DNA from: a virus
DNA: 64,000 nucleotides
IMG/VR virus record: IMGVR_UViG_3300036859_000689
Span: 1-64,000 of that record
Strand: one strand, 5' to 3'
Shown here piece by piece: positions 6,001 to 63,647 of the stretch; the first letter of the stretch is position 1; each line of letters begins with the position of its first letter. The notes under the pieces were generated by a model, which saw only the letters and a program-made list of their open reading frames with translations, searched no databases and was not told the origin of the DNA. Both the position numbers and the translations under genes were made by a program.

Positions 6001-6960
6001 GCCATTCGCGCGAAGAAGGGCATGCAGGGCGAAACGAACGGCTCGCGCGTGCACTTCACCGCGGACGAGCGGCATCGCATGTACGTGCAGAGCCTCATTG
6101 GCACCGCGATGATGGCCGGGGCGATTTACCGGATCCTTCACGACAAGGATCTCGACGTTTCGGCCGCCGGGCCCGACGATCCAAACAAGAAGCGGCAATT
6201 GCAGGCCTCCGGATGGCTGCCCTATGGCGTGAAGCTCGGCAACAAGTGGTATTCGTACCGGGACAGCCCGCTCCTCGTGCCGCTCGCGATCATCGGACAC
6301 GTCGCCGATTCGGTGAAGTTCCAGAAATCGAAATCCGACATGATCCTTGAAAACAAGGTGACGGATTCGATCGCGCACGCGCCGCAGATTATTTTCCAGA
6401 CGTCGATGTTGAGCGGACTCGCCGACCTCTTCGGAAGTCTCAGCGGCCGGGGCAACGCCGCCGCCAACGCGGGCCGGACGCTAGGCGGCATCCCGGCGAA
6501 TCTCCTCATTCCGTACAACCGGCTCCTGCAGCAAATCGATCAGACGTTCGATAATCAGACCTACGACAACGACCCTGTAACCGGATCGGTTCCATTTCTG
6601 CGCCGCACCGGGACGCCGCAAACCGACGTTCAGGGACGGCCAAATATCTACAACCCGATGGCCCGGTTCGGCTCCGAGGAAAAAAACGACCCGGTCGACA
6701 TGATTCTCCGCTCGAAAAACATCTTCATCCCCGAGGTAGGAAAAGACCAAAAACTCGGCAATGGCGTGATGACCGACGAGCAGCGCGATCGCATGCGGCA
6801 GTTTTCCGGCCAGCGGATTCGCGTGCGTCTTCGCGCCAGCATCCCGATACTGCGCACGATGAATCAGGAAAACGCGCAGAAACTTGTGAACAAAATTTCG
6901 GAAGAAGAGCGCAATGCTGCGCGCCGCATGATTTCCATTCGGCCCGCCAGCCCCAAATAA
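1..6960 (+). CDS. Giant polyvalent phage protein with two ParB-like domains (5' partial)
   Basis: The frame is open from base 1, so the true start lies upstream; a GTG at base 40 is only the first possible start inside the window. At least 2319 residues. The N-terminal third is Ala/Gly-rich and amphipathic, followed by Pro-rich and charged linkers. Two ParB/sulfiredoxin-like segments are visible: bases 2290-2540 (with VVDGKHRFTAAKQRGD) and 3750-4080 (with ADGHVVDGHHQWMAALEKGD). From about 5190 to the end it is hydrophobic and helical, with a GWLPYGVKLGNKWYSYRD stretch resembling the C-terminal LPD38-type domain of phage polyvalent proteins. Such proteins are thought to be packaged and injected with DNA to protect it or take over the host. 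It sits 9 bp upstream of the portal gene, as a virion protein would. Assignment of LPD38 is from memory of the family pattern. Confidence 0.75.
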   Translation, partial: AKLPADQQKRIAEVTRDPTWWDAIKGAGKSVAEAAAAGGGAILKGIAQLPLGPMGDMEGGQVDPEIARKIAEANATPQQRMENIKSNPVYQLGNFIQEAARESYAKNPHEDEGAISQALNAAAGAAGGFAPLIASGPAAPLTIGLQTAGDDMQRLYDEQIQKGVDPQTAADFAQKRALASGAVQAALFEILPKPLQKAGNRLIVDKVVGNALSKFLANRLAQGAEGAVLGAATHAAGNVVADRPLTEGVGEAAEGLGAIQAVMPRHGATPRKPGEPPAGPPRAAEPPAPPNPADSAIDRINKGIVDQAKGRPSSAAEAAEVFEPALKERENAPPPAKSAAESAGVFEDVATTEEANAKVGSQQEQRLQQMVDEVATATGRPREEIIATRQGKTPADWMADLEYQKDPIRVDPDRRISELNSDLKSLDAEWKQHVERTGAEADRARATEEWMTGIKTRANERTAMEQADRQGTADRQAQRAGDVEAALSEAERVRRSPKSVEGLRKDLTAQSQPTTKEAQLLARRAAIKDELVKAERTRQSNRGGADLKNDLAERAGKPPSEEPPPAGAPAPVKPVDIGPRDASVSTGTGVETAKETKMMEDWRRQNVADAAAKDPIGGVAKMSGKEFHNWVHGLEDSGLTEKAHELGIDSIGKPDRIAEIKRARDAVDEEFKKKWAEYNSAPEGKKMALMDELTPLTSKRQYFNEAASAAENIEGAAGDAKVKAAHQEFANTKPKTGDEIVRDIMAKNPNADARAARQLVGNKKFEVLNVPISAVGDLFGESTVQPDVVAKYAKEKSNDPIVLSRVEGEAGGKLRVVDGKHRFTAAKQRGDKTIRAWVPIEGEAGAKPEKKTSPTAPTPPTTPSVKAESAGAATVVGSPATGVVDSGAPASKPKGPSRSDIAKQTKLVREMTARIDQLAQKYPDRVGELQKQATAERNKLTQMQADKQTGTAPSVGTSPNGEPDLISDIADLVGTIRTENVDRLAGESDGISEAFSRGAARLLRGKNGMAPDQAMEILNEAGYKFKSIGEMVSAVESAVENRRKIGASMKLQAYEEKVTEKVIGGKNPKANGSMPIEEIGVGGKFKVDGEKFSIVDVEETPEGTWEYVVKDGVKFRVPEGTRVFPDARSVRGKVNKSDLVEFIPEDTPASEMPSKPATGELIPENEQGFNLASDEQRESAAPAPEGEKTTEMFGNEVRSTPPTEMDKRNAAAREMTAPVSAHVESHSPETLEGEKLNRNWTAFAADAGSLNVPRAEMPQIKSEHRGALVNFLKARGITAGMETVDPSTLKPTQAEYSPQKVEKARNFEGSERPILISADGHVVDGHHQWMAALEKGDPIGVIKLNAPIDTVLADMKQFPSVEKSDGARTAAKLASPVDTIIGKLESLKIGKPGMLQAGNPLTVAWDGAIDFAILGIRTGRAVADMVKMAVERFKSAYPKHTPEDVTKLEEAIHSAAAEPAGQEKSRTKPSAVPTSLREAGAPVEDIQDDVRAQDPRKSEAADIVARDGRVNAETMIGDTKLPGDTRVAIGGNLINERMLALQEAKPDQVPKITADIQRITAALQKVGTSSGQTSSMFGGIYKDVRVASAMEYVDSVRKKQDEQLGPEGRKAAEEAAAAINAAKTDAEKIAAIEKLKKKFSTKPATRMLNELQRIEKVKELNRLGVLTADDLINVAGNAIGIPGIDQKKLQNLAQLAHRIDNAKNHAERSRAELELADMLNIYKGVNPMDLEASILTLNILSGYTTQMANLGGNFMQSVNMLGTTAIVNPRKVPDIVRGILAGLPEGLTQARAILQTGRGTRDFADKTMIAGSPLETIDYARDFGTNEKAGAVLTTRARAISKISRFMKAADATFYYPAREAYARLATAKLLEGKYEGAELRRKIDETLHVTPAAFESARAQATQEGYEGIDLARRTSDIIEERRAGSKVGAQAVEQSEKFASEATYTNEPVGFAGFVYRSLANMVQHGRMAGIPVLKPWMMFLRTPANVFNATMNFTPLGAIRAKKGMQGETNGSRVHFTADERHRMYVQSLIGTAMMAGAIYRILHDKDLDVSAAGPDDPNKKRQLQASGWLPYGVKLGNKWYSYRDSPLLVPLAIIGHVADSVKFQKSKSDMILENKVTDSIAHAPQIIFQTSMLSGLADLFGSLSGRGNAAANAGRTLGGIPANLLIPYNRLLQQIDQTFDNQTYDNDPVTGSVPFLRRTGTPQTDVQGRPNIYNPMARFGSEEKNDPVDMILRSKNIFIPEVGKDQKLGNGVMTDEQRDRMRQFSGQRIRVRLRASIPILRTMNQENAQKLVNKISEEERNAARRMISIRPASPK

Positions 6961-34145: not shown

Positions 34146-35489
34146 ATGCTGACGTATGGGAGTCTCTTCGCTGGCGTCGGTGGCTTCGATCTCGGCTTCG
34201 ACGCGGCCGGCATGGTTTGCCGGTGGCAATGTGAGCTCGACAAGAACTGCAGGAAACTCCTGCGCGCAAGGTGGCCGCACTCAAAAATCCATGAAGATGT
34301 CCGCACTCTCCAAAGCAAAGTCCTCGAACTCGTTGATGTTATTTGCGGAGGAAGTCCCTGCACGGACCTTTCCGTGGCCGGTCTCCGCGCGGGAATGGCT
34401 GGAGAGCGGAGCGGACTCTTCTTTGAAATGGTTCGAATTTGTAAGCAGATGCGACGACGCGGGGGCGCGCGATTCATCGTCTGGGAGAACGTCGATGGAA
34501 CCTTTAGCTCTAACGACGGCCGAGATTTCGCGGCTGTCCTCCGTGCTTTCACGGGCGTCGCGGTTGAAGTCCCGCGCGATGGATGGGGACGATCCGGTTT
34601 CATCAAAACTCCGTTCCCTGCGTGGCGGTGGAATTGCGCTTGGCGGATGTTCGATGCGCAATTCTTCGGAGTGGCCCAACGACGCCGTCGTGTGTTCCTT
34701 GTCGCAAGTGCTGGAGACGGACGTTGCGCCGAAATACTTTTTGAGCCCTCGAGCCTGTCGGGGGATTTTGCGCCGAGCCGCGAAACGGGAAAAGGACCTA
34801 CCCCCATTCTTGAAGCAGGCGCTCGAACGGGTCGCTCAAGTGAAAACGGAAAAGCCGGTATCGGTATAGGCGAGCCCGGTGACGCGATGTTCACCCTACA
34901 GGCGAAGCAGCAGCACGCTGTTTTGCCCGACGTTGCCGATTGCCTACAGGAGCGCGACGCGAAGGGTGCGGACAGCAGCACGAAAAACGGTCACCTCATC
35001 CCGGTAGCGTTCGGCTACCAGAACGACGGCGATACGATGATGGGAATGACCAAGGGCGGAGTGCCGACCCTGAGCGCGTCGACGCGGATGGCCGTAGCGT
35101 TCGACACGACACAGATCACCAACCCGGAAAATCGGTGCAATCCAAAGGACGGGGATCCTTGTCACCCCCTCTCGGCGTCTGCGCATCCGCCGGCGATTGC
35201 GTTCAGCGGCCGTGAACGTGGCGCCGAACCGTCTTGCGGCCGTCCGCCGCGTCCGCCGCACGCGATCGAGGAAGCCGTCGGCGCGCTGGACACTGTGAAG
35301 CCGTGGAACGTAGCCACCGGCTACGCGGTGCGGCGCCTGACCCCTCGCGAGTGCGATCGCCTGATGGGATGGCCCGAGGACCACACGGCGGGCTTTCCTG
35401 ACACGGTTCGCTATCGGATGGCCGGTAATGGCGTCGCCTCGCCCTGCAGCGAATGGATTGGCAAACGCATCGTGCGCCTCGCGACATGA
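34146..35489 (+). CDS. DNA (cytosine-5) methyltransferase
   Basis: 447 residues with C5-methyltransferase motifs in order: I YGSLFAGVGGFDLGFDAAG; IV GGSPCTDLS with catalytic Cys72; VI WENV (114-116); VIII QRRRRVF (178-184); IX/X RRLTPRECDRLMGWP (about 394) and GNGVASPCSEWIGKRI at the end. The long region between VIII and IX is the target-recognition domain. AAAGGACGAC precedes the ATG as a Shine-Dalgarno. No cognate restriction enzyme is adjacent, so it is an orphan enzyme likely used to protect phage DNA. ATGA overlap with the helicase gene. Confidence 0.93.
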   Translation: MLTYGSLFAGVGGFDLGFDAAGMVCRWQCELDKNCRKLLRARWPHSKIHEDVRTLQSKVLELVDVICGGSPCTDLSVAGLRAGMAGERSGLFFEMVRICKQMRRRGGARFIVWENVDGTFSSNDGRDFAAVLRAFTGVAVEVPRDGWGRSGFIKTPFPAWRWNCAWRMFDAQFFGVAQRRRRVFLVASAGDGRCAEILFEPSSLSGDFAPSRETGKGPTPILEAGARTGRSSENGKAGIGIGEPGDAMFTLQAKQQHAVLPDVADCLQERDAKGADSSTKNGHLIPVAFGYQNDGDTMMGMTKGGVPTLSASTRMAVAFDTTQITNPENRCNPKDGDPCHPLSASAHPPAIAFSGRERGAEPSCGRPPRPPHAIEEAVGALDTVKPWNVATGYAVRRLTPRECDRLMGWPEDHTAGFPDTVRYRMAGNGVASPCSEWIGKRIVRLAT

Positions 35490-37336
35490 AGAAGAAGCCG
35501 CCAACCGTTTCTTTCGACCTGCCGGACGACATGCAGACGCCGGAACAGGAGCCGACAATCTCGGCGGCGGAATACGAGGCGGAGCGGAAGAGGGACGAAA
35601 CGGCCAGGTTTGCGCCGGCGCCGGCGGGAGCGCGTTCGCTTGGTCGATCGCTACCGAACAGCATAGAGGCCGAGGAATATCTGCTGAGTTGCTGCATGCT
35701 GGACGGTCGCGACGTCGTGGGCCGCTGCATCGAGGCCCACATCGACGTCGACGACTTTTATGACGGTAAGCACGGCATGATCTACGAGCGATTGGTCGAC
35801 TGCTATAACCGGAATCTCGTGATCGACATCAGCGTCATCGCGGAGGAGCTAAAGGCACACCGGCAACTTGACGCCGCCGGCGGGTATGCGTTCTTGACAC
35901 AGGTCAGCAGCCGCATTCCGACGACCGCCCAAGCCGGTTACTTCATCGACAAGGTGCGCGAGCAAGCGACGCTGAGAAAACTGATCCGGAGCTGCACCGG
36001 CGCGGTTGAGGACTGCTACAATTTCTCAGGCGGCATCGACGACTTCGCGGCCGACGTCCAGAAGAAGATCGCCAAGGCGGTGAACGGCTACGGGGGAGGG
36101 ACCAAACCGGTCCCGCTCATCACCTACGACTATCCGACCCAGCGGGATCCCAACGTGCTCCTTGGTGACGACGATTACCTCGGCCGCGGTGGCGGAATGG
36201 TGCTCATTAGCTATGCCGGCGCCGGCAAGAGCTCACTCGTCATGCAGATGGGACTCAACTGGGGGATTGGGCGCCCCTCGTTCGGGCTCCGAAGCAATGG
36301 CCCGTTGAAAATCCTGATGATTCAGGGCGAAGATTCCCCTCGGTATCTCGGCAAAGTCGCTGCCAGCTACGCGGCTGCCGCCAAACTGACGATCGAGGAG
36401 CGCAAACTCGCCGAGCGCAACGTGCTGATCCAAGAGGTAAAGGGCGTCGCCGGCCCCGCGTTTCTCTCGAGAGTTGAGCGACTGGTTGACCAACACGAGC
36501 CGGACCTCGTCGTCATCAACCCCGTCTATCTCTACGTCCAGGGCGACATTTCGAACAGCGCGGACGTGAAGCCGTTCCTGTTGGGTCTCGATCAAATCCA
36601 GACCGGCGCCCGGAGAAAATTTGGCTGGCTGCTCGTCCACCACACCGGCAAGCCGACCGGCAAGGACAATAAGGGCCAGCGCGCCGAGCTGGATAACTGG
36701 GAGACGATGTATATGGGCATCGGCTCGTCGTTCTGGGCCAATTGGCCGCGCGCCTCCGCGATGTTGGAGCCGCGGGCCTCAAAGCCCGACGGACGGCACT
36801 ATTGGCTTAAATTCGGCAAAGGATGGCAGAATGCGGGCATCGTGCGCGATCGTCAGGAGAACGGGGAAAAGAAAATCGAGCGCGTGAACCGGGTGGCCCT
36901 TTGCTATTCGAACGAGGTGCTCGAGATCGGCGGCGAGAAACGGCCGTTGATTTCGTGGGAGCACGACCCGGAAGGGGAGAAGGAATTCGCCGACAAGCAG
37001 GCCACCGCGCGCGAGAACGGCAAACAGGGTGGAGGTCGTCCCGCAAAATTCACTTGGCCCGCACTGCGACCGACCCTCGCGAAGTTGGCCGGCACTCCCG
37101 ACAAGGCTCAAGGGTTCAATGTCCTGCACCGAAGCGCGGCCGACGTGCTCGCGATCAGCAAATCGTCGTTCAACCGGCTCATTCAGGAAGCGGTTGCGAG
37201 CGGTGAGATGTGCCAGCACACCGTAGGAGCCCTCACGGGTCGCTACTGGGTGCCGGCCGTGCCGCACAAGGTTGAGGCAGCACAGCCGGACGACCTAGAA
37301 AATCTGTCCTGGCCGACAGAACCGACCGATCAGTGA
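35486..37336 (+). CDS. Replicative helicase: DnaB N-domain fused to RepA/AAA_25-type ATPase
   Basis: 616 residues from the ATG at 35486, overlapping the methyltransferase stop. Residues about 55-165 match the DnaB N-terminal domain (SLPNSIEAEEYLLSCCMLDG; FYDGKHGMIYERLVDCYNRN). The ATPase has Walker A SYAGAGKSS (about 241-249), DSP motif IQGEDSPRYLGKVA, Walker B LVVINPVYLY (about 341), and HHTGKPTGKDNKGQ, which resembles plasmid RepA/AAA_25 helicases rather than classic DnaB. A C-terminal winged-helix-like domain follows (LHRSAADVLAISKSSFNRLI). Expected to unwind the fork; no phage DNA polymerase is seen nearby. Confidence 0.85.
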   Translation: MKKKPPTVSFDLPDDMQTPEQEPTISAAEYEAERKRDETARFAPAPAGARSLGRSLPNSIEAEEYLLSCCMLDGRDVVGRCIEAHIDVDDFYDGKHGMIYERLVDCYNRNLVIDISVIAEELKAHRQLDAAGGYAFLTQVSSRIPTTAQAGYFIDKVREQATLRKLIRSCTGAVEDCYNFSGGIDDFAADVQKKIAKAVNGYGGGTKPVPLITYDYPTQRDPNVLLGDDDYLGRGGGMVLISYAGAGKSSLVMQMGLNWGIGRPSFGLRSNGPLKILMIQGEDSPRYLGKVAASYAAAAKLTIEERKLAERNVLIQEVKGVAGPAFLSRVERLVDQHEPDLVVINPVYLYVQGDISNSADVKPFLLGLDQIQTGARRKFGWLLVHHTGKPTGKDNKGQRAELDNWETMYMGIGSSFWANWPRASAMLEPRASKPDGRHYWLKFGKGWQNAGIVRDRQENGEKKIERVNRVALCYSNEVLEIGGEKRPLISWEHDPEGEKEFADKQATARENGKQGGGRPAKFTWPALRPTLAKLAGTPDKAQGFNVLHRSAADVLAISKSSFNRLIQEAVASGEMCQHTVGALTGRYWVPAVPHKVEAAQPDDLENLSWPTEPTDQ

Positions 37337-37811: not shown

Positions 37812-37842
37812 AAAAAAGCCCGCCCCTTCAACAAGGGCGGGC
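37812..37842 (-). terminator. Rho-independent terminator (leftward)
   Basis: Read leftward: GCCCGCCCTT-GTTG-AAGGGGCGGGC followed by six T. A 10-bp GC stem with one bulge, a 4-nt loop and a T run: a canonical terminator, 45 bp after the stop of the PEP-CTERM gene. It closes the transcript of the PEP-CTERM/protease cassette. Confidence 0.85.
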
Positions 37843-37886
37843 CTCTATCTGGCGGAGAGAATTAACTAGAAACTCCCGCCAAAACT

Positions 37887-38636
37887 TTAAGCGAGAGCAG
37901 CAGTCCTCTGCCGCATCCGACGCCAAGAGATAATGCCAAGCAGTGACGCACCGCCAAACAGTCCGTAGGTGCTCGGCTCGGGAACCGGTATAATACCGAC
38001 CGGCGTGTTGTTGATGCGAACGCCGAAAACGCCGTCGTCGTAGTCCTGCAGGCCGGGCGATGCCGCACCGCGGTCGTCGATCCCGAAAATATAGTAAGTG
38101 AAATTGACGTCACTCGCGACGAAAGTCGTCCAGTGAAGAACGTCATCCATCGTATATTTCACGTTATCGGTCGAAGTGTCCTGATGCCAGAACACGAGGT
38201 CCGTCGCCAGCGTCGCCGTGATATGCCACGTCTGAGTTGAAGCCGCGCCATAGTTCGCAAAGAGCACTTGGTTGCTCGCGCCGAGCAGGGACGATTCGGA
38301 ACCGATGTTATTCGAGTCCGCGCTGTCCTTGGCGAGAAACACCACGTCGGCGAAGAAGCCAGCGCCGACCTGCAAGTCCGATGGCGAAGTCGGATCAAGG
38401 TTCGGAATGTTGTTGAACGAGAGGCCGGCGTAGTTGAACGAGTGAATCTGCCCGTCAAAATCTGGCACCGGTGTAAAGGTGCCGAGATTGAGCAGGGTGT
38501 TACTCACAAACGGAGCGTCGAGTTTCATCGCGCTGAATGGCGCGATGGCCGTAGCCGACGAACTGTAGATCAACTGGCCGTAGGCAGAACCAGCGACGAG
38601 CGCCAGAACGAGTGAAACGATATTTCGTGTTTTCAT
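37887..38636 (-). CDS. Secreted PEP-CTERM sorting-signal protein
   Basis: 249 residues. Signal peptide MKTRNIVSLVLALVAGSAYG with cleavage before Gln21, a beta-rich body with many Asn, Asp and Ser (NFTYYIFGIDDRGAASPGLQ), and a C-terminal PEP-CTERM signal: VPEPSTYGLFGGASLLGIIS (218-237) then WRRMRQR. In bacteria this tripartite tail is recognised by an exosortase that cleaves the protein for surface or matrix attachment. Its presence on a phage implies use of the host exosortase after infection. Flanked by leftward terminators (37812 and 39509) together with the protease gene. Confidence 0.9.
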   Translation of the reverse strand: MKTRNIVSLVLALVAGSAYGQLIYSSSATAIAPFSAMKLDAPFVSNTLLNLGTFTPVPDFDGQIHSFNYAGLSFNNIPNLDPTSPSDLQVGAGFFADVVFLAKDSADSNNIGSESSLLGASNQVLFANYGAASTQTWHITATLATDLVFWHQDTSTDNVKYTMDDVLHWTTFVASDVNFTYYIFGIDDRGAASPGLQDYDDGVFGVRINNTPVGIIPVPEPSTYGLFGGASLLGIISWRRMRQRTAALA

Positions 38637-38667
38637 GGTTTGTTTATCCCCAAGGTTGGAGGAAAAA

Positions 38668-39498
38668 TTAAAGCGCGTTGATCTGCGGGATCCACGGGCT
38701 AGCGACGTTGATCTGCGTGACCGTCAGATTGACAGCAGCGAGTGAGCCAAAATAACGCGGCAATCCGTCGACGATGATGAAGCACGGGCTGCCGCTATCG
38801 CCGGGCTGAATTTGCACCGGCGAATTCGTTTTGTTTGAGACTTGAGCGGTGCGCGATGTGCCGCTCGAAAAAGAAAACTTGATCGGGGCAATGCCCGCGA
38901 TCGGCTTAACCAAACTGGAAAGACCGAACATCGTGCACGCGCGGCCGACGTAATTGGTATCCGGTTCGACCGGCGCCACGACCGCCGGCTTAACGACGGT
39001 GATCGCTTGGTCGAGTTGGTAGCACTCGAAATCGTCGGCCGTGAAAACAACCTTCACGATTTTTGCCGTCTGGGTTCCGTTTGCGCCAATGAAACGAACC
39101 GCCAGTCCGATATACGGAGCAAAGGGCGGGTTGTTATAGTGACGCGCGGCGGCAATCACATTGGGACGCACAAGAGCGCAGAGACGAATCTGCCCGCCCT
39201 CGTTGATGATCCCAACGCTCTCGTAAGCGTTCTTCACAACGTCCGCACTACCCGGAAGGAAAACTTGTTTAGCCGGTGGCTGGAGTTCAACCACGTCGCT
39301 ATAGGGTGGAAAATCCACCTGCACGCCGTTCTGAATTATCGACGGTGGCTGCACGGTAACGATCTCGCGAATGAGCGGAGGAGTTACCCAGAATGACTGC
39401 CCGCCAGCTCCCTGCTGGATTGTAGCGCCGAAAAAATTCGGATTAGGAGCCTGTGCAAGAAACGGCTCGTTGGCCGCGGTGAGATTTAGAAGTATCAT
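38668..39498 (-). CDS. Trypsin-like serine protease (GDSGSP)
   Basis: 276 residues from the ATG at 39498; a TTG at 39510 lies inside the upstream hairpin and is less likely. The catalytic-serine motif PGDSGSPCFIIVDG is near residue 235. A candidate His lies in NVIAAARHYNNPP (near residue 117), in the position of the usual TAAH motif, and an Asp could be that of DFECYQLDQAI. No convincing signal peptide (MILLNLTAANEPFLAQAPNP). It lies 31 bp upstream of the PEP-CTERM gene, on one transcript. The degenerate His motif means activity is not certain. Confidence 0.65.
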   Translation of the reverse strand: MILLNLTAANEPFLAQAPNPNFFGATIQQGAGGQSFWVTPPLIREIVTVQPPSIIQNGVQVDFPPYSDVVELQPPAKQVFLPGSADVVKNAYESVGIINEGGQIRLCALVRPNVIAAARHYNNPPFAPYIGLAVRFIGANGTQTAKIVKVVFTADDFECYQLDQAITVVKPAVVAPVEPDTNYVGRACTMFGLSSLVKPIAGIAPIKFSFSSGTSRTAQVSNKTNSPVQIQPGDSGSPCFIIVDGLPRYFGSLAAVNLTVTQINVASPWIPQINAL

Positions 39499-39508
39499 CG
39501 TTGAGCAC

Positions 39509-39527
39509 AAAACCGCTTTCGGCGGTT
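39509..39527 (-). terminator. Short terminator-like hairpin (leftward)
   Basis: Read leftward: AACCGC-CGAAA-GCGGTT with TTTT overlapping the end of the stem. It lies between the glycosyltransferase stop (39547) and the protease start, so it probably ends the long leftward operon and isolates the protease/PEP-CTERM pair. Confidence 0.5.
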
Positions 39528-39546: not shown

Positions 39547-40416
39547 TCAGGGAATTACTGATCTGGTTCTAAGGTTTTTGTGCCAGCGCGTTATGAGCCA
39601 ACAACGGACCCGGAATGGAAAATTTCGTATCCGGAACCATGCACGATAGATCGGTGATAAATATACCAAGTTTCCGACTTCCAAGTCCTCCCCGTGAATC
39701 AGATCAGCCACGAGGCTCTCCATCGTTTTACAGTCAATTTTACGTGACGAACAGAGGTTCGCGCCCCTCAGAGTGGCGCCGTGGGCGATCGACAGCAGCC
39801 TGAGATATTTCCGTCCAGAGATGAACGGACCGAGGATTTTTCGCGTCGTGGTTTCTGAAAAACAGCCCGCTTGCTTCGCGATGATTCGCCGCAAAGGAAA
39901 CCGAAACTTTGAGACGACCGACGGACCGGCGACGACGTGCTTGGGTGTGACAACCCCGTCCTTCCAGGGTTCAAGCGCGGCTTCCGTGAGATCCGACAAG
40001 ACTTGCGCGTCGGAGAACCGACACAGTCCGAGGATCGCGTTGTTGAGCTGGATGACGAAATCCCGGTGCATGTGGTAAACCTCCATCGGCAGAACGACCG
40101 AGCCAGGCTCCGGCAATGGCAGAACGAATTCGTAGATATTCCAGATGAGAAAATCGGCATCGAGCCAGTAGACGGCCGCGTAGTGGTCGTTGAAAAGATG
40201 CGCCTTCATCAACCTCACGCGCGCCAAGTCTCCAATCTGAATCTTGGTAAATGGCGCCCCGTATTCTGGCGTGTAGCTGAACAGCTCGTCGCCAACATGG
40301 AGATACTCGTAGCCTCGATAGTCGGCCCACCGCTGCACGGTTTCGAGGCATTGCTTAATCCACTCAGGAGAATTCGGAGCTGACGATTGGAGGATGAGGA
40401 CTGGTTTTGTTCGCAT
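39547..40416 (-). CDS. Glycosyltransferase, GT-A fold (LDADF motif)
   Basis: 289 residues. KPVLILQSSAPNSPEWIKQC, then GYEYLHVGDELF and a donor/metal motif YWLDADFLIW (D86-A-D88) followed by VVLPMEVYHMHRD: the arrangement resembles GT34/GT8-like galactosyltransferase folds. The acceptor is unknown. It follows the leftward small-gene chain by 4 bp, so it may be expressed early, unlike the other phage glycosyltransferases here. Confidence 0.7.
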   Translation of the reverse strand: MRTKPVLILQSSAPNSPEWIKQCLETVQRWADYRGYEYLHVGDELFSYTPEYGAPFTKIQIGDLARVRLMKAHLFNDHYAAVYWLDADFLIWNIYEFVLPLPEPGSVVLPMEVYHMHRDFVIQLNNAILGLCRFSDAQVLSDLTEAALEPWKDGVVTPKHVVAGPSVVSKFRFPLRRIIAKQAGCFSETTTRKILGPFISGRKYLRLLSIAHGATLRGANLCSSRKIDCKTMESLVADLIHGEDLEVGNLVYLSPIYRAWFRIRNFPFRVRCWLITRWHKNLRTRSVIP

Positions 40417-54003: not shown

Positions 54004-54182
54004 ACTGCCCGCTCTGCGGCCGTCCGAAACCGGCCAACGTCCATTTTGTTTGTCCGAAGTGCTGGCCGCGGATCCCGTCGGATGACCGTCAGAAACTCGG
54101 CGCGCTGCTGCGTCAAGGCGGCATCAAGGCGACCGAATCGAAACTCGCGGCCGTAGTCCGCAAAATGAAAGGCGGACTATGA
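54000..54182 (+). CDS. Zinc-ribbon protein (60 aa)
   Basis: 60 residues. CPLCGRPKPANVHFVCPKCW gives two CxxC pairs, followed by a basic helix (ESKLAAVVRKMKGG). ATGA overlaps on both sides place it tightly between the regulator and the HerA-like ATPase; an adaptor for that ATPase is possible. Confidence 0.65.
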   Translation: MNCPLCGRPKPANVHFVCPKCWPRIPSDDRQKLGALLRQGGIKATESKLAAVVRKMKGGL

Positions 54183-56011
54183 GCATGCTTACGATCGGAA
54201 CGAAGGAAACCGGCGGCGGGAATTTCAAACTTCCGTTGGATCTCACCACGCAGTCGATCGCCATCTTGGCGAAGCGCGGCGTCGGCAAATCGTACACCTC
54301 GGCGGTTTTCTGCGAGGAGCTTTTGGACGCCGGCCAGGTGCCGGTCATCATCGATCCGACGGGCGCGCACTGGGGTTTGAAGTCGAAGGCGGACGGCAAG
54401 TCGGCCGGCTACCCGGTCGTTATCTTCGGCGGTGAACACGGCGACCTACCGCTCGAGGAGGACAAAGGCGAAGCGATCGCGACCGCGATCGTCGACCAAC
54501 GTTTTCCCGCCATCATCGACCTTAGCCTTTTCCGCAAGGGACAGGTGCGGCGGTTCATGACGCCGTTTCTCGAGACGCTTTACCGGCTGAATCGGCTGCC
54601 GCTGATGCTCGTGGTCGACGAGGCGGACGATATTTGCCCGCAGAAGTGCGGACCCGAGGAGGCTCAGATGGTCGGAGCGATGGAGGACGTCGTGAAGCGT
54701 GGCCGAAAGAAAGGCCTTGGCTGCACGCTCATCACGCAGCGGCCGGCGGATTTGGCGAAGCAGGTTTTGACGCAGTGCGAGATGTTGGTCGCGATGCGGC
54801 TCGTTCATCCCCTGGACATCCGGGCCGTGATGGAGTGGGTCAACGTTCACGCCGACAAAGACACCGCGGCGAAGATGATCGAGTCGCTGCCGACGCTGCC
54901 GATCGGGACCGCTTGGTTTTGGTCGCCGGGTTGGGGCGACATCTTCGAACGCGTGAAGATTCGGCCGCGGCGCACGTTCGACAGCGGTGCAACGCCGAAG
55001 CCTGGCGAGAAGCGACTCGAACCGAAGGAAATGGCGGTCATCGATCTGACGGCACTCGGCGAGAAAATCACGCTGGCAGCAGCGCGCGCGCTGGAGAATA
55101 ACCCGGCGCATCTCCGGAAGGAAATCGCGGCGCTGAAAAAACAGATTCTCAACACCGCGACCGCGGCGCCGGTTGAGAAGGTCGTGACGGTTCCGATTCT
55201 CACTGACGAGAATTTGAAGGTCCTTGATCGCGTCGCCCGTTCGTTGGACGAAATCCGACAACTCCAAAAAACCGGTAACGGGATTATGGAATCCCTAGGC
55301 CACGAAATCGTTTTGCTGTCCAGCAACCTGAAAACTCGGATCCAACCGATCGCCACGAAGCGTAGCGAACCTTTCAATCCCGACGAGTGGGCGCGCGAAG
55401 GCGAACCGATGTTTAGTCTGCCGATGGGGGAAACGTTCAAGCGAAAAATCCACAAGCCCGGTCCGATTAACCGCGACGAGCATCTCGGAGAATCCGAGCT
55501 GCCCCCAGCCGGAAGCGTTTACCTGAAAACTCAGGCCGATCGGATCACAACTTTACTGCCGAAGGGAGAGCTCGCTGTGCTGACCGCATGCGCGCAGCAC
55601 GGCGCCGGCGGATGCACGCGCGAACAGCTCACCGTCCTGACCGGCTACAAACGTTCGAGCCGTGACGCCTACATCCAACGCCTCAAGGAGCGGGCTCTCA
55701 TTAACACGGTCGGCGACTACATCGTCGCCAACGCGGCCGGTGTCGCGGCGCTTGGTGACGACTTCGAACCACTTCCAACGGGCGCCGCTCTGCGGGATTA
55801 CTGGCTTAACAACAAGCTGCCCGCCGGCGAGTCGATGATTCTCGCCATCCTGTGCAAACACTACCCGGAGGCCGTCGACCGCGAAAGCATCAGCGAACAG
55901 ACAGGCTACAAACGCAGCAGCCGCGACGCGTACCTGCAGCGACTCTCCGCGCGCCGGCTCGTCATCACGACGTCCCAAGGCGTTGCCGCGAGCGCGACCC
56001 TTTTCAGCTAA
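54179..56011 (+). CDS. HerA/FtsK-like ATPase (DUF87) with two winged-helix repeats
   Basis: 610 residues. Walker A ILAKRGVGKSYTS (33-38), Walker B LMLVVDEADD (142-151), sensor/arginine-finger region ITQRPADLAKQVLTQCEMLV: the HerA pattern of hexameric DNA translocases. A coiled coil (about 290-400) leads to two copies of a winged-helix unit, EQLTVLTGYKRSSRDAYIQR (about 480) and ESISEQTGYKRSSRDAYLQR (about 566), sharing a TGYKRSSRDAY core. HerA normally works with NurA nuclease, but none is visible. Possible roles: DNA translocation in replication or host DNA processing. Confidence 0.82.
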   Translation: MSMLTIGTKETGGGNFKLPLDLTTQSIAILAKRGVGKSYTSAVFCEELLDAGQVPVIIDPTGAHWGLKSKADGKSAGYPVVIFGGEHGDLPLEEDKGEAIATAIVDQRFPAIIDLSLFRKGQVRRFMTPFLETLYRLNRLPLMLVVDEADDICPQKCGPEEAQMVGAMEDVVKRGRKKGLGCTLITQRPADLAKQVLTQCEMLVAMRLVHPLDIRAVMEWVNVHADKDTAAKMIESLPTLPIGTAWFWSPGWGDIFERVKIRPRRTFDSGATPKPGEKRLEPKEMAVIDLTALGEKITLAAARALENNPAHLRKEIAALKKQILNTATAAPVEKVVTVPILTDENLKVLDRVARSLDEIRQLQKTGNGIMESLGHEIVLLSSNLKTRIQPIATKRSEPFNPDEWAREGEPMFSLPMGETFKRKIHKPGPINRDEHLGESELPPAGSVYLKTQADRITTLLPKGELAVLTACAQHGAGGCTREQLTVLTGYKRSSRDAYIQRLKERALINTVGDYIVANAAGVAALGDDFEPLPTGAALRDYWLNNKLPAGESMILAILCKHYPEAVDRESISEQTGYKRSSRDAYLQRLSARRLVITTSQGVAASATLFS

Positions 56012-58109: not shown

Positions 58110-58801
58110 GCTACCAACTCCCCGACGGCATAATTGAGACGAAGGAAGGCTTCTTCGTCTTGAAGGACGACACGCATCTTTCTCGTTGGATCGAAGAGCA
58201 GGGCAGGCTCGACATCGCGGAAGGTCAGATTGCGTTCTATCGCCAGCACATCCCGGTTGGAGGCATCGTCATCGACGCCGGCGCCAGTCTGGGAGATCAC
58301 ACGCTGACCTACGCGAAACTCGTCGGCCCAACGGGTCGCGTGCTCGCGATCGAGCCGGAGGAACTTTCGTTCGAGGCGCTGAAACTAAATTTCGACCGGT
58401 GGCAAAACGTGATTTGCGTTCGGGCAGTGCTTTCGGACAGCGACGGATACTTCAAAATCCACCGCGAAGCTAACGTCGGAGGATCGCACGTTTCAGAGTT
58501 TGGCAGCAACGTGCGAAGCCTCCAGCTCGACGAATATCTGAACTCACTGACCGCCTGTCATCTGATCCATCTGGACGTCGAAGGGTTCGAGGTGCGCGCG
58601 CTCAACGGAGCCTGGGAGATCATCAAGAAGTTCCGGCCGGCGATCGTGCTTGAGATCAATCACGCCGCGTTGGCGAAGTACGGCTACAGCGAGCAAGCCG
58701 TAGCGACGCTGCTGAACACTTTCGGCTACGATTACAAGGAGATCGAACCGCATCACCACGGCGGACTCGCGCAGCGCGACGTCATCGCATTACCACGATG
58801 A
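58106..58801 (+). CDS. FkbM-family methyltransferase
   Basis: 231 residues. SAM motif IVIDAGASLGDHTLTYAKLV (D57-AGASLGDH), VLAIEPEELSFEALKLNFDR as motif II, and IHLDVEGFEVRALNGAWEI with VLEINHAAL, all typical of FkbM O-methyltransferases that act on sugars or polyketides. In this cluster a sugar substrate is likely, for example methylation that makes a glycan cap. 4-bp overlaps both sides. Confidence 0.85.
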   Translation: MSYQLPDGIIETKEGFFVLKDDTHLSRWIEEQGRLDIAEGQIAFYRQHIPVGGIVIDAGASLGDHTLTYAKLVGPTGRVLAIEPEELSFEALKLNFDRWQNVICVRAVLSDSDGYFKIHREANVGGSHVSEFGSNVRSLQLDEYLNSLTACHLIHLDVEGFEVRALNGAWEIIKKFRPAIVLEINHAALAKYGYSEQAVATLLNTFGYDYKEIEPHHHGGLAQRDVIALPR

Positions 58802-60414
58802 ACAAAGACACCAAAATCGTGGTCGTTCTGGCGGTCTGCCATAACGATTTTCACCTCGCCGAGAAGTGGCTCGCATGGGCGGCACTGCTCGCGTGTTCAA
58901 CTGAACACGGCGAACCCTACAGCGGAGACCAATGCTACGATAGCTACCGGCTGATCGTATTTTGCACGAAGAGTCTCGAGCCGGAATTGATGCGACGCCT
59001 TCGAGAACTCGCCGACAAGTTTCCTTTCTTCGTCGAAATTGCTGAGACGCCAACTCTGTACGAGCAGGGATACACGCCGTCCGCCAACTTCATGTTTCGG
59101 TGCGCGCTCGAGCACGTCGAACGTTTCTATCCCGGCCGCGCGATGCTTTGGTGCGAGGCCGACACCGTTCCGATGCACAAGGATTGGGTGCCGGCGATCG
59201 AGGAAGAATATCAGAAATGCGGGAAGGCCTTTCTCGGCGACTACCACGAGTGCGAGATCAGCCACATGACCGGCAATGCGGTCTATTCGCCGAACTGGCG
59301 CCAGCTCGCGCCGTCGTTGGCGCGACTCCCGCAGCCGCGGCCCGAACAGGGATGGGATTCGATGTGCGCGCACGAGACCGTCCCGCAGATGGCCCGTTCG
59401 AAGACAATTCAACAGGTTTGGCGCCCGCCACTGATAACCGATGCCTGGTTGCAGGAAAATATCCCGGACACGACCGCGCTTTTCCATCAGTGCAAAGACG
59501 GCAGCCTGATCGATGTATTATGCGGATATGCGAGAAAAACTCGCATAAAATTGCGCGAGCCGTTGCCGCGGCCGGAGCGGAGCCAAGGAGCGAGCAACGG
59601 GCTCCGGATGGAAATCCTGATCGTCACGCACGCACGCGATATTCCGTTTTTGGAATACTGCATCAAATCGATCCGCAAATTCACCAGCGGTTTCAACGGC
59701 GTGACGATCGCGGCGCCCGACACGGAAATGAGTGCGTTCGCGAAATTCGCGAGCAACGACGTCAAAGTCGTGCACTATGCCGACGTTCCAGGGAAAGGGA
59801 TGTTGAGGCATCTCGCGATAAAATGCCGGGCGGACGAAATGTGCCCGACCGCCGACGCCGTGCTCCACATGGACGCCGATTGCATGTTTTGGGATGAAGC
59901 AACGCCCGACGACTTCATGTCCGCCGGCCGCTTGATTTTGGTGCGCGAACGGTACGACGATCTCACGAATCCGAACCGTCGTTTCTGGCGCGATGGCGTT
60001 CAGCGCGCAGTGGGTTTCCGGCCAGAATGGGAAACGATGGTGCGTCATCCGCAGGTCTACCCAGTCGATCTTTACCGCTGGGTCCGAAAGCTCGTTGAGG
60101 CGACGAACGGGATGCCGTTCGACCATTTCGTGACGACGGGGAAAAACGAGTTCCCGCAGTCGTTCTGTGAATTCAATACGATCGGAGCCGTCGGGGTTCG
60201 CGACTTCGCGGAGCGATTCACGTTCGTTAATTACGATCCCGCCAAGGATGCCGGCGAGTGCGGCGTCAGCATGAAACACACGTCGTTTCAGTACCTCTAT
60301 CGCGCCGGTCGCGACAAGGTTGTCGAGATGTGGAGTCACGGCGGAGCGGAGGCCTACAAAAAAGACATGGACCGTTTTCTCGCCGGCAACCGTCCGAGTT
60401 TCCAAATCAAATGA
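58798..60414 (+). CDS. Two-domain glycosyltransferase
   Basis: 538 residues. First GT-A domain (1-270) with MLWCEADTVPMHKDW (E-A-D near 119) and GDYHECEISHMTGNAVYSP; second domain (from about 280, MEILIVTHARDIPFLEYCIK) with VLHMDADCMFWDEA (D-A-D near 358) and NRRFWRDGVQRAVGFRP. Two donor sites suggest it adds two different sugars in turn, or a polymerising reaction. Part of the glycan cluster; 4-bp overlaps at both ends. Confidence 0.8.
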   Translation: MNKDTKIVVVLAVCHNDFHLAEKWLAWAALLACSTEHGEPYSGDQCYDSYRLIVFCTKSLEPELMRRLRELADKFPFFVEIAETPTLYEQGYTPSANFMFRCALEHVERFYPGRAMLWCEADTVPMHKDWVPAIEEEYQKCGKAFLGDYHECEISHMTGNAVYSPNWRQLAPSLARLPQPRPEQGWDSMCAHETVPQMARSKTIQQVWRPPLITDAWLQENIPDTTALFHQCKDGSLIDVLCGYARKTRIKLREPLPRPERSQGASNGLRMEILIVTHARDIPFLEYCIKSIRKFTSGFNGVTIAAPDTEMSAFAKFASNDVKVVHYADVPGKGMLRHLAIKCRADEMCPTADAVLHMDADCMFWDEATPDDFMSAGRLILVRERYDDLTNPNRRFWRDGVQRAVGFRPEWETMVRHPQVYPVDLYRWVRKLVEATNGMPFDHFVTTGKNEFPQSFCEFNTIGAVGVRDFAERFTFVNYDPAKDAGECGVSMKHTSFQYLYRAGRDKVVEMWSHGGAEAYKKDMDRFLAGNRPSFQIK

Positions 60415-60542
60415 GCGATCGACGTTTCGCGCTCTGGTTTCTCGCGGTCCTCATCCTCATCATAGGATGCTTTCGCTTAGATTTCTACATCTGGAGAAAG
60501 CAGCATCCGCAGGCGCCAACGTGGACATTCTTCTTTAAGTGA
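60411..60542 (+). CDS. Small membrane protein (43 aa)
   Basis: 43 residues, SDRRFALWFLAVLILIIGCF as a single membrane span, then FYIWRKQHPQAPTWTFFFK. It lies between two glycosyltransferases with 4-bp overlaps on both sides (ATGA, GTGA), so it may anchor or guide one of them at the membrane. Confidence 0.55.
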   Translation: MSDRRFALWFLAVLILIIGCFRLDFYIWRKQHPQAPTWTFFFK

Positions 60543-61270
60543 AACCTATGATCGTCTGTCTCCAATTCTGGCGCGGTGACATCGAGAAAGCGATGCGGCT
60601 CGCGCGCTTCATCGCCGACCTCGAACCGTTGAAACGCAGCGACGTCGAATTTCTTTTCGTCGCGCGCTTCGACTGCGACCACGATCACGAAACGATCCAT
60701 TACGTGCAGGAAAAATTCGAAAAGGTTCACTGGATTGCGACGCATACGAAGTGGACCGGATGGCCGGGAGGCTGCAATGGCATGGCTCGAGACACTCTCG
60801 AATGGTTGTCGGTCAATCGGACGAAAACGCCGGCGCTTCTGCTCGAGCCCGACTGTGTGCCGGTGACGAAGGACTGGCTTGACCGGTTAAGCAAAGAGGC
60901 GACTCGCCTCTTTATCGCGGCCGACAAATGGCTCGCTGGCGACTGGCGGAATAGCGGCGGGCCCTACGGTCACGTGAATGGAAATTGTCTCATCCGTCCC
61001 GACATCATTCCGCAACTGCTCGAGCATTTCAACGAGGGGCTGGCGTGGGATTGCGCGATCGCGCCGGCGGTTCGAACGAACTGGTATTTCACGCCGCTCA
61101 TCAAGAACCGGTTCGAATCAAAGAACGCGACTTACCGGGATCTGCACGGCGCCAACTGGTATCCTGGACGACTGACGGCCGTTGAACTCGAGGAGTATCG
61201 GCCCGTGCTCGTGCACGGTTTCAAGGACGATAGCGCGTTCGAGTTGGCGAAGGAGGAGCTGCTGCCATGA
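60539..61270 (+). CDS. Glycosyltransferase, GT-A fold (EPDC motif)
   Basis: 243 residues from a GTG overlapping the upstream TGA. MIVCLQFWRGDIEKAMRLAR, LLLEPDCVPVTKDWLDRL (E-P-D near 102), GPYGHVNGNCLIRPDIIPQL. Typical GT-A nucleotide-binding half and acceptor half. Note P in place of the middle residue of DxD. ATGA overlap with the next glycosyltransferase. Confidence 0.72.
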   Translation: MKPMIVCLQFWRGDIEKAMRLARFIADLEPLKRSDVEFLFVARFDCDHDHETIHYVQEKFEKVHWIATHTKWTGWPGGCNGMARDTLEWLSVNRTKTPALLLEPDCVPVTKDWLDRLSKEATRLFIAADKWLAGDWRNSGGPYGHVNGNCLIRPDIIPQLLEHFNEGLAWDCAIAPAVRTNWYFTPLIKNRFESKNATYRDLHGANWYPGRLTAVELEEYRPVLVHGFKDDSAFELAKEELLP

Positions 61271-61983
61271 CGCCCAAGTTTTCTCTCTTGCACGCGACCT
61301 ATGGGCGACCGGAAAAGGCGATCGAGGCGATGAAGCGCGCGCTGGGGAATGCCGCAATTTCAAGCTCGGTGGAATATATTTTCGCGGTCAACAACGACGA
61401 CTCGGATAAACTTTCGATTCCCATTTTCATTCTCGAACATGGTTGGCCGCACAGTATCCAGATTATCAGAGGAGATTTCGCCGGATCCGCTGCAGCGTGG
61501 GACGCCGCCGCAAAGGCCAGCAGTGGATCGGTGCTGATTCAAATGCAGGATGATTTAGAGCTTCCCGGCGCGTGGGACTATAAACTGCACGAACGTCTTT
61601 GGGAGCATGATAAACACTTTGATCGCGCGTCGATTTTCGTCGGCGTTTCGGATGGCTATCGTGACGACGCTCTATGCTGCACCGCGATCATGACCCGAGA
61701 ACGCTACCGACAGCAGGGCGAATTCCTTCACCCTGGCTACGTTTCTGTCTTCTCGGATGATGATGTGACCTACCGGGCGCTACGCGATGCGCGCGAAAAG
61801 AAATGCACGTTCCTCGAGGCTCGCGATCTAGTCTTTCTCCACCGCCACCACTACCACGACAAGAGCGTGCCGATGGATTCCACTTACGAACGAGAAAACT
61901 CGGCCGAAGCATACCGCATCGGCCAGACCTTGTTCATGCAACGAAACCCAGAGGCCATCAGCGATGGTCTCAAAACCTGGTAA
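61267..61983 (+). CDS. Glycosyltransferase, GT2-like
   Basis: 238 residues. SLLHATYGRPEKAIEAMKRA (GT2 start), FAVNNDDSDKLSIP, VLIQMQDDLELPGAWDYKLH with D-D at about 95, and SVFSDDDVTYRALRDA plus HRHHYHDKSV. Probable inverting GT-A enzyme. Overlaps the preceding gene by 4 bp. Confidence 0.75.
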   Translation: MTPKFSLLHATYGRPEKAIEAMKRALGNAAISSSVEYIFAVNNDDSDKLSIPIFILEHGWPHSIQIIRGDFAGSAAAWDAAAKASSGSVLIQMQDDLELPGAWDYKLHERLWEHDKHFDRASIFVGVSDGYRDDALCCTAIMTRERYRQQGEFLHPGYVSVFSDDDVTYRALRDAREKKCTFLEARDLVFLHRHHYHDKSVPMDSTYERENSAEAYRIGQTLFMQRNPEAISDGLKTW

Positions 61984-61985
61984 AC

Positions 61986-62306
61986 GTGAATCCCGTCCGA
62001 TGGCTGTGGTTGAGACTGACTAGAGGAATCCGTCTTCGTCGCGCCCAAGCCGCGTTCATTGCCACGCCGCCGGATGTTTGGATAACAAATGTGCGCGACG
62101 CGACTCGCGTTCCAATGGTGAACTGCGCAAAGGGGCACGAGGGCGAGATATTCTTTGGAGGGAAAGGCAATTCCATCTGTCAAACCTGCGGAAAAAAAAT
62201 GCCGGGTTGCTGGGATACGGTCTGTTTTATTTGCGGCAACACGTCTTGCTATGAGCACTCGGTTCAAGTTGGCGAATGCTGGTACTGCAAGAAATGCGGA
62301 GGATGA
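61986..62306 (+). CDS. Zinc-ribbon-rich protein (106 aa)
   Basis: 106 residues from a GTG 2 bp after the previous stop. A basic start (VRWLWLRLTRGIRLRRAQAA) and a C-terminal array of CxxC motifs (CQTCGK, CFICG, CWYCKKCGG) for two zinc sites. Between two glycosyltransferase genes; may be an accessory protein. Confidence 0.6.
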   Translation: MNPVRWLWLRLTRGIRLRRAQAAFIATPPDVWITNVRDATRVPMVNCAKGHEGEIFFGGKGNSICQTCGKKMPGCWDTVCFICGNTSCYEHSVQVGECWYCKKCGG

Positions 62307-62308
62307 GT

Positions 62309-63013
62309 ATGAACCCAAAAATCTATATCGCCGTCCCGTGTCACAACCGGAAGGCTATCGTGAGGCAATGCCTGCCGACGATCCGCGCCGGCATGCAAGA
62401 GGGCGATTTGATGGTCGCCTACGACGACGGCTCGAAAGAGTACGGCCCGACCTTCCTCGAGCAGTGGGCCGACGTCGCGGTCCGGGAGCCGAATCCGATC
62501 GGCATCGAACGGCAGCGCGCGAATCACTTCCGCGCCTTTTGGGCATCCGACTTCGATTATCTGTACCTGACGGATTCGGATGCACTGCATTCGATCAACT
62601 GGCGTGTGCAGGCGGAACGGCTCGTGAACGAATGCTCGCCGGCGCCGGTCTGCCTCTACAACACGGCCGCGCACGTGCGCCTCGTGAACAACACGATTCT
62701 CGACGATCCCGCGAGCGATGTCATCTGGCGCCGGGTCGCGCCGGGAATAAGCTACATGCTGGACCGAAACCACGCTCGCCAAATCGTCGCCGCGTTGCCG
62801 CAGATGCCGGCACATTGGAATTGGGATTGGACGGTGCCGGCAATCTTGGGGCATCGATTCGCCGTCAGCCGCGTCAGTTTCGTCGACCATCTGGGTCTCG
62901 GCGGCATGCACCATCCGCCGACGGAAGGACTCGACGGCGGCGACCGCGCGCTCAACCCGGCGCCGGACCTGATCGAACTACGGGCCAAGGCGGTCAAAGC
63001 ACTCACGCGATGA
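62309..63013 (+). CDS. Glycosyltransferase, GT2-like (DSD motif)
   Basis: 234 residues from the ATG at 62309, chosen because GGAGG lies 6 nt upstream (62298-62302); an ATG at 62303 overlaps the previous stop. KIYIAVPCHNRKAIVRQCLP, MVAYDDGSKEYGPTFLEQWA, LYLTDSDALHSINWRVQAER (D-S-D near 89), HWNWDWTVPAILGHRFAVSR. A complete GT-A enzyme. Confidence 0.78.
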   Translation: MNPKIYIAVPCHNRKAIVRQCLPTIRAGMQEGDLMVAYDDGSKEYGPTFLEQWADVAVREPNPIGIERQRANHFRAFWASDFDYLYLTDSDALHSINWRVQAERLVNECSPAPVCLYNTAAHVRLVNNTILDDPASDVIWRRVAPGISYMLDRNHARQIVAALPQMPAHWNWDWTVPAILGHRFAVSRVSFVDHLGLGGMHHPPTEGLDGGDRALNPAPDLIELRAKAVKALTR

Positions 63014-63237: not shown

Positions 63238-63647
63238 GCTCCGTATTCGTCAGCACCGAAAAGAAGCTCCTCCATTTCGAATGGATCTTCGCGCAACTGA
63301 AACAGAGTTATTGGGGCAGTAATCTCGACCCGATGCGCCTCGCGGACGCGATCGCCCACAGCGAATGCTTTGGTCTCTACATGGCCGACGGCACCGGTCG
63401 GTTCCAAATCGGATTCGCGCGAGTCGTGACCGATTGGTCGACGTTCAGCAGCCTGATGGACGTCATCATCGACCCAAAGTACCGCGGCAAAGGCTACGGC
63501 ACAATTCTGATGAAGGAGGTTCTCGGCAGCGAAGCCGTGGCGCCGACCCGAAATGTTATCTCGAGTCGCGAGGCCGTTGAATTCTATCAGAAATTCGGCT
63601 ACAAGGTTCTCGATGACAAAGTCCTGACCTTGAATCCATGCCGATAA
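63234..63647 (+). CDS. GNAT-family N-acetyltransferase
   Basis: 137 residues from the ATG at 63234. Acetyl-CoA binding motif IIDPKYRGKGYGTILMKEVL (R-G-K-G-Y-G) and a C-terminal EAVEFYQKFGYKVLDDKV segment typical of GNAT. Expected to acetylate an amine or a sugar; position between the glycosyltransferases and the terminase suggests glycan acetylation. Ends overlapping the terminase start. Confidence 0.85.
   Translation: MSSVFVSTEKKLLHFEWIFAQLKQSYWGSNLDPMRLADAIAHSECFGLYMADGTGRFQIGFARVVTDWSTFSSLMDVIIDPKYRGKGYGTILMKEVLGSEAVAPTRNVISSREAVEFYQKFGYKVLDDKVLTLNPCR

Follow-up and report, generated by a model that had tools for sequence, protein, structure and literature searches.

The gene block and the phage that carries it

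The stretch of DNA analysed here (the window, 64,000 nucleotides) takes up the greater part of a 68 kb phage genome (G000; the record has 68,023 bases), and on its minus strand a putative glycosyltransferase, a protease and a PEP-CTERM protein are encoded leftwards in this order, followed by a terminator. The features of this block and of its surroundings are given below, in window positions unless stated otherwise.

35453–37336, plus strand: DnaB-like helicase (phrog_19, 9.7e-16), landmark adjoining the module and convergent with it
37812–37843, minus strand: intrinsic terminator at the operon end, −25.5 kcal/mol
37887–38636, minus strand: PEP-CTERM protein, 249 aa, with signal peptide, exported domain of ~195 aa and PEP-CTERM tail
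37890–37988, minus strand: PEP-CTERM tail (VPEPSTYG box, hydrophobic segment, basic cluster RRMRQR)
38574–38636, minus strand: predicted signal peptide region (hydrophobicity, basic N-terminus), cleavage expected near AYG-QL
38668–39498, minus strand: PA-clan (trypsin/S6-like) serine protease, 276 aa, no signal peptide
39139–39141, 39031–39033 and 38794–38796, minus strand: protease triad H120, D156 and S235 (GDSGSP motif)
39509–39527, minus strand: weak hairpin between the glycosyltransferase-like and protease genes, −8.4 kcal/mol, short T run
39547–40416, minus strand: putative glycosyltransferase with a DxD-like motif (YWLDADFLIWN), a block member in the window and in phage G001 only
1–6960 plus record positions 66005–68023: large virion gene, split over the record ends

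The PEP-CTERM protein begins with a signal peptide (MKTRNIVSLVLALVAGSAYG-QL) and ends in PVPEPSTYGLFGGASLLGIISWRRMRQRTAALA. It scored over the curated cut-offs of both Pfam (PF07589, 25.1 bits; cut-off 20.7) and NCBIfam (TIGR02595, 19.8; cut-off 16), which confirmed the PEP-CTERM tail proposed in an earlier reading of the DNA (the sequence-only reading); signal peptides, including the one proposed there, were predicted throughout from counts of hydrophobicity and charge. The exported domain scored above cut-off in no described family, and the AlphaFold2 models of the protease and the PEP-CTERM protein were unusable (pLDDT 35 and 32, respectively).

The GDSGSP protease gene noticed earlier does lie 31 bp upstream (its end is at 38668). 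The ATG at 39498 is its most likely start, since the relatives align from there, with an upstream TTG (39510) as a possible alternative. H120, D156 and S235 follow the PA-clan order and are invariant in six aligned lineages (24–55% identity to the window), and a profile of six proteases matched S6 autotransporter protease domains in the PDB (best E 1.9e-4), as well as 3C-like proteases and, weakly, elastase. Judged by these motifs and profile matches to PA-clan structures, the gene encodes a PA-clan serine protease whose fold may be chymotrypsin-like. It had no Pfam or NCBIfam family match and one meaningless match in PHROGs (E 0.36). The order of His, Asp and Ser and the GDSGxP motif are those of S6/S1 peptidases of the PA clan (Hbp, Pic, elastase), but the phage protease lacks a signal peptide and an autotransporter part, AAxHY replaces TAAHC, and the N-terminus carries a conserved NPxFFG together with repeated beta-type VTVQPP segments. 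By a hydrophobicity count, a hydrophobic N-terminal segment was present in none of the seven lineages' proteases.

Terminators had been proposed on both sides of the pair. The downstream one was upheld, and each of the seven lineages described below has a strong terminator (−19 to −30 kcal/mol) behind its PEP gene, while the upstream one proved to be only the weak hairpin at 39509–39527. In a consensus scan of the stretch, terminator-like and promoter-like sites were no commoner than in shuffled sequence; the scan did not list the strong terminator at 37812–37843, whose loop falls outside its settings, and on the correct strand its promoter-like sites did not exceed chance. The third gene of the block (39547–40416) had no Pfam, NCBIfam, PHROG or PDB match, so the name glycosyltransferase is one that we infer.

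The cassette is surrounded in G000 by genes for a portal, a major head protein, a 2306-aa virion protein, exonucleases, helicases and methyltransferases, and the terminase (record positions 63638–65488) extends beyond the window end. One 2219-aa protein of G007, a related phage, is matched in its N-terminal part by the last gene of the record and in its C-terminal part by the first; with one gene thus split over its two ends, the record probably represents a circularly permuted, near-complete genome with no prophage edge. Bacterial flanks, the case that would have undone the sequence-only reading, are excluded as far as sequence allows by the gene split over the record ends and by the position of the cassette next to the DnaB-like helicase in the window as well as in the related G007 and L067. 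When host assignment via phage relatives was attempted, the portal and major head protein had no INPHARED match, the HerA-like ATPase of G000 had one distant match, and the tail sheath of G001 gave distant T4-like matches only.

Two further loci in the window deserve mention. The gene of the HerA-like ATPase (54179–56011) has a weak PHROG terminase match, and the true terminase is likely the gene at 63638–65488. A probable glycosyltransferase gene cluster, partly common with G007, occupies 58798–63013 and may have a role at the host surface too:

58798–60414: weak Stealth-like gene
61267–61983: weak EpsD-like gene
62309–63013: GT2-like gene

Recurrence, exchange and constraint of the gene pair

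A search with the PEP-CTERM protein gave one close relative, in the 225 kb phage G001 (a myovirus, stretch L003), where all three genes stand in the window's order (PEP-CTERM protein 81–82%, protease 54–55%, glycosyltransferase-like protein 43% identity). A degenerate search for the tail in IMG/VR returned 32 stretches, in 28 of which the tail stands at a protein C-terminus with a hydrophobic segment and a basic end (one more runs off the end of its stretch), and in two of these matches, G003 (205 kb) and G002 (44 kb), a GDSGxP protein is encoded directly upstream. Protease profile searches added G004 (69 kb), the near-identical G005, G006 and G007, and L067 (25 kb). With G005–G007 counted once, this makes seven lineages, and a PEP-CTERM gene lies directly downstream of the protease in 7/7, at a gap of 31–37 bp (31 bp in the window) or with a 4 bp ATGA overlap. 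The pairing in the window is therefore not due to chance, and the co-occurrence in viral databases that the sequence-only reading had asked for was found. The other records hold phage genes as well (tail sheath and baseplate in G001, portal and terminase in G003, tail fibre in G004). Relatives of the pair were absent from 50,697 INPHARED phages and, for the protease, which alone was searched there, from plasmids; two seeded scans over 84,980 bacterial and archaeal genomes (GTDB), which reach close relatives only, came up empty for both proteins.

The PEP-CTERM proteins differ in their state of preservation. An N-terminal hydrophobic segment with the expected charge is present in all six full-length proteins, and the tails of the window, G002 and G003 exceed the cut-offs of both PF07589 and TIGR02595, while those of G001, G007 and G004 lie under the Pfam cut-off with their layout unchanged (PEA replaces PEP in G004). 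In G002 (L014, 2147–2302) a 51-aa remnant of the PEP gene lies beside an intact protease gene and the terminator; of the encoded protein it keeps the tail and the VG/PVPEP stretch ahead of it, but neither the signal peptide nor the exported domain, and the latter is hence dispensable in G002. Over most of its length the G007 protein is weakly similar to the flocculation protein PepA, well under the model cut-off.

G000 and G007 are related phages (29 protein pairs in common, a few of them counted twice in overlapping stretches; major head protein 69%, portal 59% identity), and the module adjoins the DnaB-like helicase in both, as it does in L067, whose locus has the helicase and the small genes seen in G007. 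The PEP-CTERM protein of the window nevertheless shares 82% identity with its counterpart in the unrelated G001 but only 37–39% with the one in its relative G007. G002 and the fetched part of G001 have 22 protein pairs in common, and the G002 module sits between two genes whose G001 orthologues adjoin, 28 bp apart; G001 carries its own module ~42 kb from this empty site. Because the PEP-CTERM identities cross phage relatedness, and because a site filled in G002 is empty in G001, the module is mobile and has been exchanged horizontally between phages. The third gene of the block varies between lineages.

Within the exchanged unit, protease and PEP-CTERM protein co-diverge (correlation of identities r 0.87, reached by 2/720 permutations in a Mantel-type test). 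The PEP-CTERM protein is under strong purifying selection across unrelated phages, with a dN/dS of about 0.09–0.1 at a near-saturated dS of about 1.7 (two close pairs), and it is more constrained than its partner, the amino-acid identities of PEP-CTERM protein and protease being 81 vs 54% and 71 vs 49% in the two pairs. No inner branch of the protease tree was well supported, so the relationships given here rest on identities and gene positions.

A small serine recombinase gene (PF00239; L042, 5294–5917) adjoins the module in G007; its product has 207 aa, the size of a resolvase. The orientation of the module relative to the helicase is inverted between G007 and L067. Invertible DNA was considered for this block and rejected: no long inverted repeats flank it, and the flip is therefore treated as an evolutionary inversion.

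Proposed host sorting and effect on the infected cell's surface

No exosortase was found in the phage records by a search that matched 1 of 14 control genomes, and sorting would consequently depend on the host. This agrees with the proposal of the sequence-only reading that a host exosortase would process the protein, which is also what knowledge of the family leads one to expect. The same reading had named lysogeny or infection as the stage of expression; as no tyrosine integrase occurs in any of the eight module records, lysogeny is unsupported and this part of it was dropped, while the phage cassette, the true tail and the conserved pairing stood. Superinfection exclusion by surface display, which it had raised, is possible. 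It did not pick up that a third gene belongs to the block, that the module is exchanged horizontally, or that further phage families also have PEP-CTERM proteins.

In G003, the next same-strand gene past the terminator encodes an undecaprenyl-phosphate sugar transferase (PF02397, 189 bits), which also matches the XrtA/PEP-CTERM model TIGR03013 below cut-off. Across seven module records, no second PF02397 gene occurs. Transferases of that kind start exopolysaccharide synthesis. An association with exopolysaccharide genes is clear in G003 only, the window and G001 having the putative glycosyltransferase. According to one paper (PMC9850573), PEP-CTERM proteins belong to the extracellular polymeric matrix and are needed for flocs, and a role in extracellular matrix and flocs has likewise been reported elsewhere (PMC12642866). 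Taken together, the G003 sugar transferase and this reported role point to the host surface and matrix, and the unit is accordingly read as a moron operon that modifies the surface of the infected cell.

Our preferred reading, to which we give a probability of roughly 55%, is thus a mobile phage moron operon that places a protein in the host surface or matrix during infection. The protein made by the phage, bearing a Sec signal peptide and a PEP-CTERM tail, would be exported by the Sec pathway of the host and then cut and sorted by the host exosortase to the outer surface or the exopolysaccharide matrix. There it would alter the surface in the phage's favour, most likely by reducing further adsorption or by changing the matrix or aggregation, so that fewer adsorptions might be wasted, or aggregation or release be altered. 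The protease, having no signal peptide, would act in the cytoplasm or be freed at lysis, and would most likely clip a host factor of the same surface or matrix system. In favour of this reading are the tail above curated cut-offs, the adjacency of the two genes in 7/7 lineages, their co-divergence, the purifying selection, the horizontal exchange with its empty site, the G003 sugar transferase, the lack of a phage exosortase and the weak PepA similarity in G007. Both the benefit to the phage and the protease substrate are weakly inferred parts of this scheme. Against the moron-operon reading stand the separate compartments that protease and PEP-CTERM protein would occupy until lysis and the varying third gene. 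A simple, uniform story is also hard to square with the G002 remnant, with the sub-threshold tails of G001 and G007 and with PEA in the tail of G004.

If the protease instead digested the matrix, freed at lysis or carried in the virion, with the PEP-CTERM protein as anchor, decoy or tether, the module would serve escape from the matrix. The protease has no signal peptide, yet the PA-clan fold is common in extracellular proteases, the solved structures closest to it by profile belong to secreted S6 protease domains, its N-terminus has the repeated VTVQPP segments, and the G002 module lies near collagen-like and baseplate-type genes. This link to virion genes is inconsistent, however, with the replicative helicase adjoining the module in G000, G007 and L067, and we regard matrix escape as unlikely. 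The G002 form, which retains tail, VG/PVPEP stretch and terminator without signal peptide or exported domain, could also mean that a short membrane-anchored tail is the active part and occupies or blocks the host exosortase while the protease removes a competing host component; but G002 may hold a decaying remnant, and the exported domain is kept in the other lineages and strongly constrained in the two measured pairs, which makes an active tail highly improbable.

The abundance of PEP-CTERM proteins in many environmental bacteria would suit a pair captured from a bacterium as passenger genes, doing nothing specific for the phage. Since the scans for close relatives in bacterial and archaeal genomes came back empty and the pair is kept in seven phage lineages under purifying selection, this explanation is disfavoured and has little chance of being right. 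A cassette for lysogenic conversion, for which the moron-like layout, the own terminator and the serine recombinase beside the G007 module could be cited, is scarcely credible given the lack of tyrosine integrases and the resolvase size of that recombinase.

Phage surface-modifying morons include superinfection-exclusion lipoproteins and O-antigen glycosyltransferases. Like them, the moron operon favoured here is a self-contained unit with its own terminator (7/7), variable in position, with a site empty in a relative (G001 vs G002) and a probable surface target; it differs in using the exosortase route rather than lipoprotein or glycosyl modification alone, in including a protease, and in residing in phages without tyrosine integrase. 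Knowledge of the exosortase system, now twenty years old, comes mostly from sequence, and the roles of its many substrates are largely open. With bacterial PEP-CTERM/exosortase sorting (Haft et al. 2006; Zoogloea/Aquincola PepA) the phage protein has in common the signal peptide, PEP box, hydrophobic segment and basic cluster and, in G003, the link to an exopolysaccharide sugar transferase, but it is phage-encoded without an exosortase of its own, has a dedicated protease partner, and its exported domain belongs to no described family above the family's cut-off. No description of phage PEP-CTERM proteins was found in the open-licence papers searched. That phages keep, exchange and purify an exosortase substrate suggests that the exosortase-sorted surface matters in phage infection, and the module offers a small testable gene pair together with a new phage protease family.

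PEP-CTERM proteins in other phage contigs

PEP-CTERM tails with unrelated exported domains were also present in other kinds of phage contigs (T4-like, terminase/portal-adjacent, tail-fibre-adjacent and others), the T4-like ones being recognized by a match to an ssDNA-binding protein (E 2.5e-112); some of the 32 tail-bearing IMG/VR contigs may include host DNA. A broader account, to which we give somewhat less than an even chance, is that phages of several unrelated kinds supply the host exosortase with substrates of their own, and that one recurrent form, joined to the protease, would constitute a two-part takeover of surface or matrix traded between small and jumbo phages.

A different PEP-CTERM protein is encoded in the T4-like contigs L012 (11578–12246), L025, L028 and L029. 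In L012, L025 and L028 its gene is followed by one for a signal-peptide protein of 383–384 aa (the L025 copy runs off the stretch end), which had no NCBIfam match and by eye looks like an outer-membrane barrel. Another family occurs in L016, L031, L034, L013, L026, L027 and L036, near terminase and portal genes as seen in L016 and L034. In L018 (3305–4132) the PEP-CTERM gene is flanked by two tail-fibre-like genes on one strand, and in L074 (5239–6108), a contig with a record number resembling that of an isolate genome, an internally duplicated PEP-CTERM protein is encoded next to genes that by eye are terminase-like and portal-like.
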